Position numbers and translations under genes: made by a program
Source of the DNA: an uncultured euryarchaeote
GTDB lineage: Archaea > Thermoplasmatota > Poseidoniia > Poseidoniales > Thalassarchaeaceae
NCBI GenBank assembly: GCA_937897085.1
Contig: CALCOR010000138.1
Span: 1-15,289, forward strand
Length of the DNA: 15,289 bases
Direction of reading: 5' to 3'
The notes under the pieces: generated by a model
The model's input: the letters and a program-made list of their open reading frames with translations, nothing else
The model's database searches: none
Told to the model about the DNA's origin: nothing
In this document: piece by piece, positions 5,628 through 15,289 of the stretch
How positions within the stretch are numbered: the stretch's first letter is position 1
Layout of the letters: each line of letters starts with the position of its first letter

Positions 5628-8600
5628 ATGAACATGACCCTAACACACAATCAATGGGCAGTCGTGGCGATTACCGTCACTCTCTGCCTAGCGGGAACCT
5701 ACAGCATGGCCAGCGCGATGATGAGCACTGCCATTGACTTCGAGCCTGGAGCCGACGACATCCTCGACGAGGATTCCGGAGACATGGACCCCGGAGAGGA
5801 CACGGATGAGGATGGGCTTCCCGATCGGATGGAACGTACGCAGTACGGCACCGACCCGCTCGACTGGGATACTGATGGCGACGGGATGAGTGACGGCTAT
5901 GAGGTCGAGAACGGACTCAACCCGCTCGACAGCGGCGATGCCGGTCTCGAGGACATCATCATCGACACCGTGACCGACGGCAGTGCTGATGTACAGGACG
6001 CCAACGAAACCTGGCCGGACCCGGACAACGGGCCGCTGGGAGACCCGGACAAGGATGGACTGGTTAACATCGAGGAGATGGAACTCGGGACCGACCCGCG
6101 GCGCAATGACACCGACGGAGATGGGCTCAACGACAAGTGGGAATCCCTTCACACCTTCACGATGACCACCGCCTCCGGCGAGGTCGAACTCCTCAACCCA
6201 CTCAATGGCAACTGGGACTGCATCCTGCTCGACCCGGAGTCAGAGGCGAACCTCGAACAGACACTGGGCGCAGAGACATGGCTGGCGCTGGCGAACTTCG
6301 CCGACCAGCACTCCTGCGACCAGGTGCTCGACTTCGATTCCGATGGTCTGCCGAACTACGTCGAGGAGCGCTACGGCACGAACCCGCTCTCCGAGGATAG
6401 CGACGGTGACCTGATTCATGATGAGGTGGAGATCACCAAGGTGCCCATGCCGCTCGAGGTGGTATGCGGTCTTCCCGTACTCACCCCCCCCACGGAGAAC
6501 GGTCCGTTCACTGCCATGCTGAACGCCATGCCTAGCACGGTCAATCCCGACGACTGGTTCCTGCAGGACATGGATGGCGACGGGCGCAACAACGGCCCAG
6601 GGGACTGGGACACCGATGGGGATGGCATGCCTGACGGCTTCGAGTTCTGCTACGACAGCATCCTCAACCCGGCCAATGCGTCGGACGCATTCGGTGACGA
6701 CGATCAAGATGGTCTGAACAACCGCGCTGAGTATGACGTCGCCCGCACCTGGGGAGCGGCCAACTTCACCAACCCGCTGAAGTTCGACACCGATGAGGAT
6801 GGGATGCCGGACGGATGGGAGGCGGAGAACGGTCTGCACCCAGTGGACGGCAGCAACGCCGACGAGGACCCTGACATGGATGGATGGGATGTGGACGGAG
6901 ACGGAAGGGTGCGCTACTCAGATCTGGTGGGAGTGGCACGCGTCCATTCGATTCCGGTGCAGTTGATGGACTGGGTCGATGTGAACCAGACCGTCGCCTA
7001 CGCCAAGGTGACGCACGCTGGCGGCACCCAGGAGACTGTTCCACTCAAGGCGAACAGTGCCGGATACGTCTACGAGATTCCAGCGCTCGAATTGCTCAAC
7101 GGCCCATCGAACGATAACGAAGTCACCAGCAGAAACTACGTCTGGGTGATTATCGTCGAACCTGAGGAGATGTTCACGAACACCGAGGAGTACCAAGCTC
7201 GAGACCGCGATCGTGACGGAATCATCGACGGGCGTTCTACCGACCCGCTCAATCCGGACACCGACGGTGATGGACTGAAGGACGGCATCGAGGTAGGCGG
7301 CTGGACCATCCTCGTGGTGAGCAGGGGCGTACACAACGTGCTGGTCACCAGCGATCCCGGGGACGTCGACACCGATGACGATGGCCTGACCGACTGGCGC
7401 GAATTCTCCGAGACCTTCACCAATGCCTCGAACAAGGACACCGACAGCGATGGACTGGAGGATTACGTGGAATCGATCGACGGATTCCTGTGGGAGGGTG
7501 AGTCCTACTTCACCAACGCCAGCATGTTCGACACGGACATCGATGGCCTCGAGGACGGCGAGGAGGTGATTCCCGGTGCGGACAACTACATCACCAACGC
7601 CAATGACTCTGATTCGGATGATGACGGTCTCAAGGACGGGAACGAGGTGCTGCACATCCCGCGCCCGTGGCAGATGGCGACCAACCCGCTGGTCAATGAC
7701 ACCGACATGGATGGCATGCTAGACGGCTGGGAGATGCAGATCGAGTCGACGATGGATAATACCCACTCACACTCACTCTGGGTGACGATGAACAACTGGA
7801 TGCCTCCGGGTTGTGATGACATGCAGCAATGTGGTCGAGGGCCTGGTGGCTGGATCTGGTTGAACAGCATCCAGGGATTCGCCAGCTTCGGAGACAAGAA
7901 CAACGACGGGGAGCCTGACCCGAGGTACTTCGTCCACGAGATGAACTTGACTGGATTCACCATGCCGAACACCGGAGGGCGCTGGGCTCTCGACCCGGCA
8001 TGGGGCACGATGCTCGACGCTGATTACGACATCGACAACGATACCCTCCCTAACGAACTCGAAGGGCCAGATCGGTGGGACACCAACCCCGTGGACGACG
8101 ACACCGACGGTGATCGTCTCCCCGATGGATGGGAGGTGCGCTACAGCGCTCAGGCGATATCGGAAGGGCTGGTGGACAACGCTTCGCTCGAACAACTCGG
8201 CGCCCGCGGCCCGATGGACCCGTCGGTGGCCGACAGCGATCAGGACGGCATCCCCGATGGTGAGGAGGACTTCGACCACGATGGGCTCAACCGCACTGCC
8301 ATGCTGAACAAGTTCTGTCCCAGATGGGACGATCCGACCTCGAGCTACTGCCACATCGACCCCGATGACCCCGAGGGATCGAAGTTCTACGACGACCTCG
8401 AGAACTTCACCAACTACGAGGAGATGCTGAATGGGACCAACCCAGTCCACAATGACTCGGATCTCTGCCCAGATGGATCCTCCTGCCCAGACGGATGGGA
8501 AGATGGCCCTGAGGTCTACCACAGGGACAGCGACGGGGACAGCATGTTCGATGGTTGGGAGTACTACTTCCGCTTCGATCCATTCGATTCAGGTGACGCA

Positions 8601-8717
8601 CTGCTCGATGTCGATTCTGACGGATTCACCAACAGGTGTGAACACGAATGGAACACCAACCCGAAACGGGGCGACAGTTATCCCGGACAAGGCCAACTCT
8701 GCGATAATTTCGCGTAA
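5628..8717 (+). CDS. Secreted thrombospondin type 3 (TSP3) calcium-binding repeat protein
   Basis: This protein of 1029 residues is almost entirely built of Asp-rich TSP3-type loops, which bind calcium and stack into stiff rods. About two dozen loops can be read, such as DTDEDGLPD, DTDGDGMSD, DTDGDGLND, DTDDDGLTD and DSDQDGIPD, usually followed by GWE, Y/EE or N(T/N)P spacers (for example YGTDPLDWDTDGDG). A signal peptide lies near residues 10-30 (hydrophobic core AVVAITVTLCLAGTY, then SMASA). Residues about 445-515 lack the loops and read like a beta-sandwich insert. No C-terminal membrane anchor or sorting motif is seen, so it is probably released or held non-covalently at the cell surface. 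ATG 5634 lies 8 bases after GAGG and is a better-spaced start than ATG 5628 (2 bases); they differ by two residues. Expected role is structural or adhesive, or binding of a partner; no enzyme domain is visible. The gap upstream suggests its own promoter. Confidence 0.9.
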   Translation: MNMTLTHNQWAVVAITVTLCLAGTYSMASAMMSTAIDFEPGADDILDEDSGDMDPGEDTDEDGLPDRMERTQYGTDPLDWDTDGDGMSDGYEVENGLNPLDSGDAGLEDIIIDTVTDGSADVQDANETWPDPDNGPLGDPDKDGLVNIEEMELGTDPRRNDTDGDGLNDKWESLHTFTMTTASGEVELLNPLNGNWDCILLDPESEANLEQTLGAETWLALANFADQHSCDQVLDFDSDGLPNYVEERYGTNPLSEDSDGDLIHDEVEITKVPMPLEVVCGLPVLTPPTENGPFTAMLNAMPSTVNPDDWFLQDMDGDGRNNGPGDWDTDGDGMPDGFEFCYDSILNPANASDAFGDDDQDGLNNRAEYDVARTWGAANFTNPLKFDTDEDGMPDGWEAENGLHPVDGSNADEDPDMDGWDVDGDGRVRYSDLVGVARVHSIPVQLMDWVDVNQTVAYAKVTHAGGTQETVPLKANSAGYVYEIPALELLNGPSNDNEVTSRNYVWVIIVEPEEMFTNTEEYQARDRDRDGIIDGRSTDPLNPDTDGDGLKDGIEVGGWTILVVSRGVHNVLVTSDPGDVDTDDDGLTDWREFSETFTNASNKDTDSDGLEDYVESIDGFLWEGESYFTNASMFDTDIDGLEDGEEVIPGADNYITNANDSDSDDDGLKDGNEVLHIPRPWQMATNPLVNDTDMDGMLDGWEMQIESTMDNTHSHSLWVTMNNWMPPGCDDMQQCGRGPGGWIWLNSIQGFASFGDKNNDGEPDPRYFVHEMNLTGFTMPNTGGRWALDPAWGTMLDADYDIDNDTLPNELEGPDRWDTNPVDDDTDGDRLPDGWEVRYSAQAISEGLVDNASLEQLGARGPMDPSVADSDQDGIPDGEEDFDHDGLNRTAMLNKFCPRWDDPTSSYCHIDPDDPEGSKFYDDLENFTNYEEMLNGTNPVHNDSDLCPDGSSCPDGWEDGPEVYHRDSDGDSMFDGWEYYFRFDPFDSGDALLDVDSDGFTNRCEHEWNTNPKRGDSYPGQGQLCDNFA

Positions 8718-10482: not shown

Positions 10483-11868
10483 ATGTTCAGTCTCGCCGGC
10501 CCGATGAGCGAGGAGCATGGCCTCACCGTAGGTGAGGCGCCGCCGCCTGTGAGCCACGCCGAACTGCGTGAGCGACAGCAGGCTCTGATGGCACATCTCC
10601 CCACGGATGCACTGCTGCTGATCGTCAACAATCCCAAGGCCATCCGCTCCCGTGATGTCGAATACCCCTATCGAGCCAACAGCGACATGCTCTATCTGGT
10701 GGGCTGGGATGAACCGAACGCAGTCGCCTGCCTGTACAATGGCGGCGACGGCTGGAAGACCCGGCTGTACGTGCCACCACGCGATGTGCTGGCCGAGACG
10801 TGGACTGGACTGCGCCCCGGGGTCGAGGGCGCGTTGGCTGATTGGCCGGTCGATGAGGCCGCTTCGGTCGACGAACTGGAGGATGGGCTGAAACCGCTGC
10901 TCGACGCATGTAGGTCGGTCTACCACATCCGCGGGCTTTCGGACAGGGTCGACAAACTGGTCGATTCAGCACTGCTCGAACAGAGTCGCGACCGCCAGCG
11001 CAAGGGAAGCGGTCCTGCCGATCTGTGCGATCCGAGGCCGCTGCTCTCAGAGATGCGGCTCATCAAGTCCGAATCCGAGTTGTCCCAGATGCGCCACGCC
11101 TGCCAGATCTCATCATTGGCTCACGTGAAGGCGATGCGCGGTAGTACTGGTGGAGTAGCCGAATACCAGCTGCAATCCCTCATCGAGGGCTGCTTCCTGT
11201 GGCATGGGAGCCGCTGGGCCTATCCGAGCATCGTGGGCGGGGGCGACAATGCCACCATCCTGCACTATCAGGACAATGACGGCACCGTTGCCGACGGTGA
11301 CCTCGTGCTCATCGACGCGGGCTGCGAGGTGAACGGCTACGCGGCGGACATCACACGGACATGGCCTGTCAACGGCAAGTTCAGCGACGCCCAGCGGGAG
11401 ATCTACCAGATAGTGCTGAACGCACAACTGGCCGCAATCGACGCCTGCCGAGTGGGCAACCCCTACGACGCTCCGCACACTGCTGCCAAGGAGTCCATGG
11501 CTCAAGGGCTGCTCGACCTGGGAGTGTTGGCAGGCCCGAGTCTGAAGCAGGCGCTCAGCGTTGAGCAGCTGGGGCTGTGGTACATGCACAACACCGGACA
11601 TTGGATCGGACTGGATGTCCACGACGTGGGAGTCTACCGACCTGATGACGAACCGCGTGAGTTCGAGCCGGGAATGGTGATCACGGTGGAGCCCGGACTC
11701 TACTTCGGCGCTTGGCGAGGGGATGTGCAGTGTCCCGAGAGATATGCCGGCATCGGTGTGCGTATCGAGGATGATGTGCTCATCACCGACGGTGAGCCGG
11801 ACATCCTGACAGCCGCCTGCCCGAAGGAAGTGGCGGAACTGGAAGCGCTGATCGGGACGAACGCCTGA
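10483..11868 (+). CDS. pepP: Xaa-Pro aminopeptidase, M24B family (PepP-type)
   Basis: This metallopeptidase removes an N-terminal residue that precedes proline, in the cytoplasm, usually with two manganese ions. The N-terminal aminopeptidase P domain (about 20-170) shows the typical RDVEYPYRANSDMLYLVGW segment. The C-terminal pita-bread domain keeps all five metal ligands: Asp278 (LIDAG), Asp289 (ADITRTWPVNG), His373 (TGHWIGLDVHDVG), Glu403 (VEPGLYF) and Glu429 (GVRIEDDVLI). His380 in the same HWIGLDVHD motif corresponds to the second conserved active-site His. The length of 461 fits PepP (about 440). ATG 10483 is taken as the start; ATG 10504 (residue 8) is an alternative, and neither has a strong ribosome-binding site at ideal spacing. 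It lies 14 bases after the PKD protein gene and 12 bases before the radical SAM gene, so co-transcription is likely, though no shared pathway is evident. It fits a lifestyle based on peptide use. Confidence 0.95.
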   Translation: MFSLAGPMSEEHGLTVGEAPPPVSHAELRERQQALMAHLPTDALLLIVNNPKAIRSRDVEYPYRANSDMLYLVGWDEPNAVACLYNGGDGWKTRLYVPPRDVLAETWTGLRPGVEGALADWPVDEAASVDELEDGLKPLLDACRSVYHIRGLSDRVDKLVDSALLEQSRDRQRKGSGPADLCDPRPLLSEMRLIKSESELSQMRHACQISSLAHVKAMRGSTGGVAEYQLQSLIEGCFLWHGSRWAYPSIVGGGDNATILHYQDNDGTVADGDLVLIDAGCEVNGYAADITRTWPVNGKFSDAQREIYQIVLNAQLAAIDACRVGNPYDAPHTAAKESMAQGLLDLGVLAGPSLKQALSVEQLGLWYMHNTGHWIGLDVHDVGVYRPDDEPREFEPGMVITVEPGLYFGAWRGDVQCPERYAGIGVRIEDDVLITDGEPDILTAACPKEVAELEALIGTNA

Positions 11869-11880
11869 GGTGGTGACGAC

Positions 11881-13053
11881 ATGCAGTGGCAGGACATTCT
11901 GGCTGCACAGTCAGAAGCGGGTGCGGCGCGGCTGACGGAGGAGGAGGCTACAATCCTCTACGAGAAGGCGGATCTGGCGGAACTTCAGCAGGCGGCGCTC
12001 GACCGCAGGCGAACCCAGGTCCCCGGTGGCGTGGTCAGCTACATGGTCGACCGCAACGTCAACTACACCAACGTCTGCACCATCAACTGCCAGTTCTGCT
12101 CCTTCTACCGCCCACCCGGTCACGCTGAGACATACACCCAGACCTACGAGCAGATCAGCGAGCGAGTGCGCGAACTCGAGGACATCGAGGGAGTGCGCAT
12201 CCTGATGCAAGGGGGAGTTCATCCCGACCTGCCCATAGAGTGGTACGAGGACCTGTTGCGCCACCTGCGCACCAACCACCCCACCATCGCACTCGACTGC
12301 TTTTCGCCCATCGAGATCGAGGGCATCGCCGATGTCACTGAATTGTCCACTCTCGAGGTGTTGCGCCGCTTCCAGGAGTGCGGAATGCACGGGCTTCCAG
12401 GTGGAGGAGCAGAGATGCTGGTAGACGAGGTGCGCCTCGACGTATCGCCCAAGAAGGGCTCCGCCGACAACTGGCTGCGGGTGATGTCCGAGGCGCAGAG
12501 CCTCGGGATGACCACCTCGGCGACCAACGTGTTCGGCTTCGGCGAGACTGAAGCCCAGCGGGTCCGTCACATGGCGCGTGTGCGCGAGGTGCAGGACGAT
12601 GCGCTGGCGAACGGTTGGGTCGGATTCACCTCGTTCATCTCGTGGCCGGTGATGCTCGAGACCAACGTGTTCGGGAAGCGCAACCGCGGACGCAACCGCT
12701 ACGAGTTGGGTGCCAGCCCGACCGAGTATCTCCGGCATGTCGCCGTCTCACGCCTGTTCTTCGACAACATCGAGCACATCCAGGCATCCTGGCCCACTAT
12801 GGGCATCGAGGTGGCACAGATGGCGCTGTTCGGCGGCGCTGATGATGCTGGCTCGACGATGATGGAGGAGAACGTCGTCTCCGCCTCAGGAACGCGCAAG
12901 GTGCTGGCGACCGAACTTGAGCTGCAGGAGACAATCCTCAGGGCCGGATTCACCCCGAGACGCCGGGATTCCGACTACAACCTGCTCGACACGCCCGACC
13001 TTGAGATCGATGTGCAGGCATTCCCATGCCCACCGCCGTTGCAACCGGTGTGA
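11881..13053 (+). CDS. mqnC: MqnC-like radical SAM enzyme (dehypoxanthine futalosine cyclase family)
   Basis: MqnC cyclises dehypoxanthine futalosine in the futalosine route to menaquinone, using S-adenosylmethionine and a 4Fe-4S cluster. The cluster cysteines are Cys66, Cys70 and Cys73 (CTINCQFCSFYR). Family blocks follow in order: QGGVHPDLPIEWYEDLL (about 110-126), PGGGAEMLVDEVR (173-185), the SPKK segment, a HIQASW block and STMMEENVVSASG near the end. These separate MqnC from CofH and MqnE, which lack the PGGGAE and EENVVSAAG-type signatures. The length of 390 is normal. The start is supported by GAGGTGGTGA (11867-11876), 4 bases before the ATG. Some pocket residues differ from MqnC as recalled: MHGLPG for LDSIPG, ATNVFG for ATMMFG, and FISWPVMLETN (252-262) for FIPWTFQPGNT. 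Function as a true MqnC is therefore likely but not proven. It is the last gene of the presumed cluster and converges with the next gene, 3 bases from its stop. Confidence 0.85.
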   Translation: MQWQDILAAQSEAGAARLTEEEATILYEKADLAELQQAALDRRRTQVPGGVVSYMVDRNVNYTNVCTINCQFCSFYRPPGHAETYTQTYEQISERVRELEDIEGVRILMQGGVHPDLPIEWYEDLLRHLRTNHPTIALDCFSPIEIEGIADVTELSTLEVLRRFQECGMHGLPGGGAEMLVDEVRLDVSPKKGSADNWLRVMSEAQSLGMTTSATNVFGFGETEAQRVRHMARVREVQDDALANGWVGFTSFISWPVMLETNVFGKRNRGRNRYELGASPTEYLRHVAVSRLFFDNIEHIQASWPTMGIEVAQMALFGGADDAGSTMMEENVVSASGTRKVLATELELQETILRAGFTPRRRDSDYNLLDTPDLEIDVQAFPCPPPLQPV

Positions 13054-13056
13054 ACA

Positions 13057-15289
13057 TCACTTGTCGGTCGCCAGCCGCTCATCGCGAGCGATCCGTTGCT
13101 GCGTCTGCGGTGTGCCTGTCTCCTGCGATTGTGGGCCGTAGCACGGTTGTCCCGCATCGGCATCGAACGCGGGGGCGATGTTGGAGATGTTCTCGTAATA
13201 GACGATCATGATGTTCGCCCGGATGTTCGGATTGCTGCTCGTCTCGGTGTACTGCTGGCCGTTCCACAGCCCTTGGTAGAGCATGTCGTTGGCTCCATTG
13301 GTGTTGACCCAGCCGGTGATGTCGTGCAGCCACAGATCGGTCTGCTGACCGGGGCACCAGCCAGCCCTGCCGTACGGCCAGGAGCCGTACTGGTTGGCCA
13401 CCGTCCCTTCATCCATCGTCTTCTTGCACCCCTGCCGGTCGCTGCCCACACTGGAGTTCCCCGCCATCGGATGGTCCTCGGTGGCGTCGTTGCCGTTCAT
13501 CGAGAAGCGGTGTTCGTGGTTGCAGAACTCGGCGCAGTTGTTCGGGTCGTTGCCGAATCCGTGGCCGGTGACCCAGGAAACGATCTCGACCTTGTCGAAG
13601 GAGCTGCTGGAGTTGACCGCGTGAACCCGCTTGTAGCGGGACTGGTTGTTGTAATCCGAGTTGAAGGTGCCACCGCTGAATGCCAATTCCCCGCGGACCG
13701 GACGCATGCCGTCGTCATCCCAGGTGGAGAGAATGATGCTCACATTGAGCCATCCACCGTTGGCTCCCGAGTAGCGGAAGCGACGCTCGCCACCGTCCTT
13801 GATGAGCCACAGCAGAGGGGATGTGTCTGTGATCCATTTTCCTTCTCGACCGTAAGTCGTGATGTACCTACCTAGCTCGGTTCCACACACGCTCGAGTTG
13901 TCGGCATCGCAGATGTAGAGGTACTGGATGTAGTCCCACTCATGGCAGCCCCCATAACGGTCGGTCGAGCCGTCCCCATCGTCGTCGATTCCGTAGCGAT
14001 CCCTGTGCTCGCTGCAGGCGTGGTGCATGTAGACCTCCATGGTGTTGAATCCCTGCATCGTGCTGGCGTTGGGCAAGGTGCCGTTCAGGTAGGAGGTATG
14101 TCCTCCGCCCCAGCCCCCGGAGTGCCGCTCCCCCGCCCAGATGTCGATGACCGTGACAGCCGGGTCCGTGCGGCGAAGTTCGACTTCGAACTCCTTGTTC
14201 CACATGTCGGGCTCATTAGCGATGTAATCCAATCTATAGCAACATGAACTGCTCTGCCAGTCGAACAGACTGCCAAGCTCACGCCAGCGCTGGAAGCGGT
14301 CGATTCCGTAGTAGAACTTGCTCCAGTCACCGATGACGTCGCGCAGGCTGCCATCGACATCCCAGCCCCTCTCGTTGACGTAATGGAGGCGTCCGCTCCA
14401 GCTGTCGCGGACCTCCTGCGGTTGGTTGCCGAGCCACGAATCCACCCTCGCTTTCATGCCTGAGATGTCGTTGGCGTAGTCACTGTCGTAGGAGCCGAAG
14501 AAGATGTGCGTGTTCAAGGGGGTCGCGCCCAGTAAATCTCCGACGTTCTGACCCCACAGATTGGATATGTAGGAGTTCGATTTCTGGTTGAAGATGAACA
14601 GGTAGGTGTGGTTGCCGTCCCAAGCATCCTGGATGCGCCAGTTACCTGATGTCGTCTGGATCATCATCGTCCCGACGCGGCCGAACCGATCGGTGGTGTA
14701 GGGCCCGCTCCCATTCCAGGGCACCGGATGCTGCAGAACGTTGCACCCAGCGGCATCCACAGTCCATTTCTGCTGACTGCCCGGACACTGGTCGACGTTG
14801 GCGAACACGCCGTCTCCATCCAAGTCAGCACATCCTTGTTCGTTGGCAATCATCCCGGTTGGCGTGCCAGGACACAGGTCGAGGTCATCTGTCACGCCGT
14901 CGCCGTCAGTGTCCCGCTGGTAGTCAGCGCAGCCAGATTCGTCTACCGGAGCACCCAGCGTGGTGTCGGGGCAGGTGTCATTGGTGTCGAGGACGAGGTC
15001 ATTGTCGTCGTCCTCATCCTCATCGCTGTCGCGGCAGCCGTCGTCGTCGCTATCGGTGCTAGCGTCTGGCACCCAGCCAATCACCCCCTTCGGGCAGTCG
15101 TCGAGGTGATCAGGAATCGAGTCGGAGTCGTCGTCGTCATCTTCACTGGAATCCTTGCATCCATCTCTGTCGTGGTCGTTGGCGAAGGTGGAGGACCACC
15201 CGTAGGGCGAGTCGAGGCAGGAGTCCACAGCGTCGATGATTCCGTCGCCGTCGTCGTCATCGTCCTCGGTCGCATTCAGACAGCCGTCA
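13057..15289 (-). CDS. Secreted PNGase F-like N-glycan amidase with TSP3 repeats, 5'-truncated
   Basis: The 743 visible residues open with cysteine-containing TSP3 calcium-binding repeats (bases about 15289-14743, units such as DTDGDGVTDDLDLCPGTP). A unique region of about 225 residues follows (14742 to about 14070), including RLHYVNERGWD and GIDRFQRWRELGSL. The two beta-sandwich halves of peptide-N-glycosidase F come last (about 14065-13670 and 13650-13180). That enzyme cuts N-glycans from asparagine, turning it to aspartate. Matches to the Flavobacterium enzyme as recalled: CHEWD (catalytic Asp60; codon 13933-13935), ELGRYITTYG, NCAEFC (Glu206; codon 13528-13530) and RAGWCPG (Arg248, Trp251). 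Cys counterparts of the 51-56, 204-208 and 231-252 disulfides are all present. Glu118 appears replaced by Ser (LSTW; codon 13726-13728), and a 22-residue loop with IDDDGDGSTD sits between the first Cys pair. The GTG at 15226-15228 is not the start: the frame stays open with more Asp-rich repeat sequence to base 15289, so the signal peptide lies outside the window. Twelve N-X-S/T sites are present. Confidence 0.85.
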   Translation of the reverse strand, partial: DGCLNATEDDDDDGDGIIDAVDSCLDSPYGWSSTFANDHDRDGCKDSSEDDDDDSDSIPDHLDDCPKGVIGWVPDASTDSDDDGCRDSDEDEDDDNDLVLDTNDTCPDTTLGAPVDESGCADYQRDTDGDGVTDDLDLCPGTPTGMIANEQGCADLDGDGVFANVDQCPGSQQKWTVDAAGCNVLQHPVPWNGSGPYTTDRFGRVGTMMIQTTSGNWRIQDAWDGNHTYLFIFNQKSNSYISNLWGQNVGDLLGATPLNTHIFFGSYDSDYANDISGMKARVDSWLGNQPQEVRDSWSGRLHYVNERGWDVDGSLRDVIGDWSKFYYGIDRFQRWRELGSLFDWQSSSCCYRLDYIANEPDMWNKEFEVELRRTDPAVTVIDIWAGERHSGGWGGGHTSYLNGTLPNASTMQGFNTMEVYMHHACSEHRDRYGIDDDGDGSTDRYGGCHEWDYIQYLYICDADNSSVCGTELGRYITTYGREGKWITDTSPLLWLIKDGGERRFRYSGANGGWLNVSIILSTWDDDGMRPVRGELAFSGGTFNSDYNNQSRYKRVHAVNSSSSFDKVEIVSWVTGHGFGNDPNNCAEFCNHEHRFSMNGNDATEDHPMAGNSSVGSDRQGCKKTMDEGTVANQYGSWPYGRAGWCPGQQTDLWLHDITGWVNTNGANDMLYQGLWNGQQYTETSSNPNIRANIMIVYYENISNIAPAFDADAGQPCYGPQSQETGTPQTQQRIARDERLATDK

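Follow-up and report, generated by a model that had tools for sequence, protein, structure and literature searches.

What does a planktonic archaeon do with a gene that resembles that of peptide:N-glycosidase F (PNGase F) from Flavobacterium? The question is raised by a stretch of 15,289 nucleotides (the window) of an uncultured euryarchaeote of the Thalassarchaeaceae, order Poseidoniales (Marine Group II, MGII). The window is the entire contig C138 (CALCOR010000138.1) of a genome of 1,873,081 bases in 376 contigs that is 85% complete, and the gene is an open reading frame (ORF) of 743 amino acids on the minus strand (13057..15288), open at its 5' end. Its product is probably a lipid-anchored extracellular peptide:N-glycanase of MGII archaea, which would serve mainly to strip foreign glycoproteins.

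The predicted protein is placed in the PNGase F superfamily (the PF09113 clan) by its match to PF09113, its two jelly rolls and its catalytic acids. The match to PF09113 (N-glycanase_C) covers ORF residues 546-671 (13276..13653, minus strand) and scores 63.4 bits (E 2.5e-17; curated cut-off 25), or 67.2 bits at the DNA level. A profile of 76 sequences was aligned to residues 5-280 of PNGase F (1pnf) with an E-value of 2.8e-21. Two adjacent jelly rolls are present in the fold comparison, the alignment of which delimits the double jelly-roll domain (13183..14163, minus strand); the N-terminal roll is visible by this route only. An original prediction, made from the letters of the window alone, had recognised PNGase F in the motifs CHEWD, ELGRYIT, NCAEFC and RAGWCPG; all four lie in the minus-strand ORF in PNGase F order, and the predicted fold is supported by both the profile match and the fold comparison. 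The span then proposed (13057-14070) holds most of the domain, but a start at 14070 cuts the first jelly roll. Of the two Pfam models that were to be matched, only the C-terminal one was; that of the N-terminal domain, PF09112, had no match at E ≤ 1 in the ORF, which tells against the identification. The repeats that had been seen joined to the domain are there: TSP3-type, Asp-rich and presumably calcium-binding, they form a stalk (14755..15288, minus strand; boundary set by eye, N-terminal part beyond the contig end), although TSP_3 is weak in this ORF (17.1 bits, below the Pfam cut-off of 25). Between stalk and enzyme lies a thioredoxin-like domain (14167..14706, minus strand) without CXXC, a motif found in none of the 76 alignment rows.

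Residue conservation was counted in alignment A1 (76 rows). Four positions, all encoded on the minus strand, are the same in 76/76 rows: the catalytic Asp452 (13933..13935; PNGase F Asp60, zebrafish Ngly2 Asp421), the catalytic Glu587 (13528..13530; PNGase F Glu206, Ngly2 Glu555), His576 in the motif TGHG (13561..13563; Ngly2 His546, Trp in PNGase F) and Arg641 (13366..13368), which we take to be Arg248 of PNGase F. Trp644 and Phe588 are likewise present in every row. So are the cysteines C425/C448, C585/C589 and C621/C645, the counterparts of the three PNGase F disulfides that had been claimed for this ORF and that are presumably paired in this way. An additional pair, C460/C468 (74/76 and 76/76 rows), has aligned cysteines in Ngly2 and none in PNGase F. 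A homologue search gave 549 proteins, and among the 120 listed EWD is found in 119 (QWD in P0023), TGHG in 119 (SGHG in P0081), and C[AS]EFC and [RG][AG]GWC in 120 each. All activity of Ngly2 is lost in D421A and in E555A (PMC12753239). Less than 0.01% of PNGase F activity remains in E206Q, and less than 0.10% in E118Q (PMC9102325).

The original prediction had compared the domain with Flavobacterium PNGase F; the closest solved relative is instead the lysosomal acid PNGase of zebrafish, Ngly2 (Si:dkey-256h2.1, PDB 9lwg). Ngly2 was the best solved relative in a single-sequence search (E 1.5e-37), and residues 24-528 of the model were aligned to 51-662 of 9lwg, a range that takes in the thioredoxin-like and PNGase parts of both. 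In each protein a thioredoxin-like domain without CXXC precedes the PNGase domain, and Ngly2, not PNGase F, is therefore the best structural match; and the family, first taken to be mainly bacterial, is no longer known from bacteria alone. The two proteins differ in that Ngly2 carries a PA domain inserted in its thioredoxin-like domain, whereas no PA domain was matched by Pfam in the window ORF and the PA stretch is the part of Ngly2 that the profile alignment passes over. Ngly2 His422 and His546 have been suggested to explain its acid optimum (PMC12753239); His546 is kept in the archaeal protein, while the position of His422 is occupied by Tyr in the window (Tyr in 61, Arg in 10, Phe in 3 and other residues in 2 of the 76 rows). 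Ngly2 is a lysosomal protein; the archaeal relatives look like lipoproteins and carry a TSP3 stalk. Flavobacterium (Elizabethkingia) PNGase F (1pnf, 1pgs, 3pms) shares with the window protein the two jelly rolls, Asp60, Glu206, the six disulfide cysteines and an Arg ahead of the GWC motif, at 16-17% identity over the aligned structure; it lacks the thioredoxin-like domain, the fourth cysteine pair and TGHG. PNGase F-II (4r4x, 4r4z) and the plant/insect-type PNGase (7zgn) have other N-terminal parts and gave a lower structural match.

Since the N-terminus of the window copy is missing, its fate was read from longer relatives. The best homologue, P0001 (1053 amino acids, 94% identical over the searched region), shows the missing part: a hydrophobic segment with ASGC is followed by a stretch resembling an Ig domain (Big_13, 24.3 bits against a cut-off of 27), by TSP3 repeats (TSP_3, 30.4 bits, over the cut-off) and by the part present in the window. 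The 109 listed proteins of at least 950 amino acids were then compared. A lipobox-like motif was found in 66 by the strict pattern and in 80 with Pro allowed; a relaxed lipobox pattern and start was found in 105/109, against 204/2180 shuffles. A C-terminal membrane helix was detected by hydropathy in 0/109, and the median number of DxDxDG motifs is 10 per protein. Export and lipid anchoring of the window copy are suggested by these relatives, and the enzyme is probably a tethered surface protein. P0044 and P0045 extend about 200 residues further past the PNGase domain, with a tail of 307 residues where the median is 100; no credible Pfam or PDB match was obtained for this extension.

Relatives were sought in 145 genomes, 89 of the window's own family (f1) and 56 of a second family (f2, probably Poseidoniaceae); the genomes are incomplete, and absences are in part gaps. 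PF09113 was found in 69/145, that is in 20/89 of f1, where it was found in no genera but g1, g2, g4 and g7 of 11, and in 49/56 of f2. In a phylum-wide draw PNGase was found in 77/389 genomes, all within the window's class and four of them in a third family, f3. Of 406 relatives confirmed by scanning named genomes, the best 80 were examined for their names: 68 are Poseidoniales, Poseidoniaceae, Thalassarchaeaceae, Poseidonia, Thalassarchaeum, Marine Group II or plain Euryarchaeota, which bears out the MGII context first proposed, 11 are Myxococcales, Myxococcota or Deltaproteobacteria, and one is Rhodobiaceae. The last (L175) and a record named Deltaproteobacteria (L109, AH-558-G13) carry archaeal-type PNGase genes and are probably misnamed; L109 falls within the archaeal clade, together with L108. 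Contamination of bins is argued against by the recurrence of the same locus in many metagenome-assembled genomes and by relatives in apparent single-cell records (L118, L128, L138). Genome G064, with a contamination estimate of 4%, has two full-size PNGase ORFs in one bin (C97, 1097 amino acids; C130, 1052 amino acids), from two copies or two strains. The ORF is split (424 + 552 amino acids) in the single-contig genome G089 (C1, locus L039), by sequencing error or true decay.

The computed results bear on the fold, the conserved residues, the make-up of the relatives, their distribution and locus, and the purifying selection on the gene; export, activity, substrate and role we infer, as follows. 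After export it would be anchored at the lipobox-like cysteine, and the weakly Ig-like stretch and the TSP3 stalk would hold the catalytic part off the membrane. The thioredoxin-like domain without CXXC may serve in dimerisation, on the analogy of a proposal for Ngly2. The double jelly roll would hydrolyse the amide bond between GlcNAc and Asn, Asp452 and Glu587 being its two essential acids, so that the glycan is released and Asp is left. The main use would probably be to deglycosylate proteins of algae and other eukaryotes and so open the chain to peptidases, the freed sugar remaining mostly unconsumed. The PA domain of Ngly2 has been proposed to restrict its substrates to flexible peptides (PMC12753239); since this domain is absent here, more constrained glycoproteins should be accepted.

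Several observations weigh against this reading. The window copy has neither a start codon nor an N-terminus of its own, because the contig ends there. The column aligned to PNGase F Glu118 holds Ser in the window and Glu in 6/76 rows, although Ngly2, which is active, likewise lacks this residue, Lys being aligned there; Trp is found in just 17/76 rows in the poorly aligned column closest to Ngly2 Trp480. Of the annotated neighbours at the locus, aminopeptidase P, on the opposite strand, is the sole peptidase, and the rest give no hint of glycans. A GH38 alpha-mannosidase was found in 26/145 genomes, the window genome included (as a contig-end fragment), and some lineages may thus use the mannose.

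The same enzyme could instead act on the N-glycosylated surface proteins of the archaeon itself, trimming or recycling them as growth or adhesion changes. Own N-glycans are likely in Poseidoniales, because STT3/AglB was found in 134/145 relatives, and an enzyme tethered to a cell encounters the surface of that cell before any other. STT3 is, however, about as frequent in genomes without PNGase (69/76) as in those with it (65/69), and none of the known routes to a chitobiose core was detected: Alg14 was found in 0/145 relatives, and GT28 (to which Alg13 and archaeal Agl24 belong) at E ≤ 0.001 in 7/145 and over the cut-off in 5/145, all weak, against 13/14 control genomes. The Alg14 negative is itself weak evidence, its model matching only 1/14 controls, and other transferases could build a chitobiose core. 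Stripping of foreign glycoproteins is favoured because Alg14 was not found, GT28 is rare and weak, and STT3 is about equally present with and without PNGase; use of the enzyme mainly on its own surface seems unlikely. Many of the ORFs matching STT3 are about 3,100-3,300 amino acids long, a length that, as we presume, far exceeds that of AglB.

Harvesting of the glycan, in which released N-glycans would be imported and eaten with GH38 as the next step, would fit with the finding of GH38 in f1 only in the four genera that hold PNGase. By genome, 16 of f1 have both genes, 4 PNGase only, 8 GH38 only and 61 neither (Fisher p 1.3e-8, a value overstated by kinship, as genomes within a genus are not independent). 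In f2, by contrast, PNGase is present in 49/56 and GH38 in 2/56. GH92 was over the cut-off in 0/145 genomes (its one match was weak and contained stops) and GH20 in 1/145, and no signal peptide was seen by eye in the four GH38 ORFs with a visible start. We hold harvesting to be quite improbable. Deglycosylation ahead of proteolysis is preferred because GH92, GH20 and the known chitobiose-building enzymes are nearly undetected and a proteolytic habit is reported for the order (PMC6461757, PMC9723583). The sole GH20 beta-hexosaminidase over the cut-off (G062:C62:5511-6560, E 6.3e-117) is in a genome in which no PNGase was found; at L032, L033, L034 and L036, GH38 lies beside a conserved gene for a protein of about 365 amino acids. 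A PNGase-like fold without catalysis, acting as a glycan-binding adhesin on particles, would agree with the absence of a Glu118 equivalent and with the tie of thrombospondin genes to adhesion in the order (PMC6461757), but it is very improbable given that Asp452, Glu587, Arg641 and His576, which binding alone does not need, are kept in 76/76 rows and that the counterparts of the first two are essential in Ngly2.

The gene has a stable place in the order. The comparison took in 25 PNGase loci, the window included: 22 from members of the order and three of the four f3 loci. The usual order of genes is topoisomerase I, an FAD protein (20/25 loci), a protein of 360 amino acids (18/25) and PNGase, and on the other side, convergent with PNGase, are genes for a radical SAM protein, aminopeptidase P, a PKD-type protein and a TSP3 protein. 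In the window these include the CofH/MqnC-type radical SAM protein (11881..13053, plus strand; PF19288, PF04055; cluster in 21/25 loci), aminopeptidase P of family M24 (10483..11868, plus strand; PF00557, PF05195; 21/25) and the TSP3-rich protein of 1029 amino acids (5628-8717; 19/25). Extra genes lie between PNGase and the radical SAM gene in three loci, the 360-residue protein is absent from two, and the f3 loci have an altogether different arrangement. The radical SAM neighbour is present at 21/22 PNGase loci from order members (22 of the 69 PNGase genomes); the 22nd stretch is only 3.7 kb long.

When the radical SAM protein was searched against 24 genomes without a PNGase match, 22 were matched. 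The 14 ortholog-like matches were compared (13 at 64-73% and one contig-end piece at 98%), the other 8 genomes, with paralogue-like matches (30-39%) or contig-end pieces, being left out. At 11/14 the gene of the 360-residue protein abuts the radical SAM gene without PNGase, across a gap of -6 to +7 bases. Among the remaining loci the contig of G001 ends there, in G062 other genes adjoin, and in G101 (L097:6893-7780) a 296-residue ORF has the lipobox, the Ig-like stretch and the first TSP3 part and no enzyme domain; it looks like the remnant of a decayed PNGase. The simplest reading is that the gene was inherited at a single locus and lost repeatedly, and an acquisition peculiar to the window genome is rejected by the shared neighbour and the empty sites elsewhere. 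Comparison of the window copy with one of the same genus (91.3% identity over 552 codons) gave a nonsynonymous divergence (dN) of 0.051 and a synonymous divergence (dS) of 0.304, and the gene is under purifying selection; dS is saturated against three other copies.

Bacterial proteins named 'peptide-N-glycosidase F-related' (P0139 of Vulgatibacter; Myxococcales loci L099-L102) have the same two-domain core. In the mixed alignment A2 almost every row has a Cys near residue 18, which fits a lipobox. Their ORFs are of 602-759 amino acids (ten named-bacteria loci), against about 1,000 or more in the archaeal relatives, and no long TSP3 stalk was found by Pfam in the four that were examined (P0139, P0147, P0150, P0169). 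A tree was built from 59 sequences and 476 columns, and topologies were tested on a thinned set of 49. Support was 100 for MGII, for f1 and for f2 (with L108 and L109), 86 for MGII with P0202 and P0212, and 98 for a group of these with f3, P0193 and the Myxococcales locus L101. Fish and five PA-bearing proteins group together (support 92), and direct kinship with animal Ngly2 was rejected (MGII and fish as one clade, approximately unbiased test, p-AU 0.00053); for these two reasons the window protein is best described as Ngly2-like and not as Ngly2. MGII and f3, which belong to the same class, were not rejected as one clade with P0193 (p-AU 0.461) and were rejected without it (p-AU 0.000118), so that entry into archaea may have been one event or two. 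When the tree is rooted on fish the archaeal clade falls among bacterial proteins, several deep branches being weak; a bacteria-to-archaea direction would depend on that rooting and on rows without a host name.

The protein thus appears to be a tethered PNGase of an archaeal order, Ngly2-like but without the PA domain. Several copies are already named 'peptide-N-glycosidase F-related protein' at NCBI, and the domain is therefore known to automatic annotation. A search of the open-access literature found no paper joining PNGase and Poseidoniales and, among the titles listed, none on an archaeal PNGase, and the word archaea is absent from the Ngly2 paper (PMC12753239). Tentatively, and as a serious possibility, this may be the first N-glycanase recognised in Archaea: tethered, PA-less and Ngly2-like, near-ubiquitous in f2, inherited at one locus, of Myxococcota-type bacterial origin, active at seawater pH although the active-site His never varies, and making the glycoproteins of phytoplankton and animals accessible to archaeal proteolysis. 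The archaeal enzymes, in which His546 is kept and His422 and the PA domain are absent, are a natural test of what has been proposed on the acid optimum and the PA domain (PMC12753239). Of the planktonic archaea in surface waters, MGII have been described as the most abundant (PMC6461757), and they are also described as protein eaters; a surface N-glycanase in 49/56 f2 genomes would supply a first step on glycoproteins, and would also release free N-glycans into the sea.
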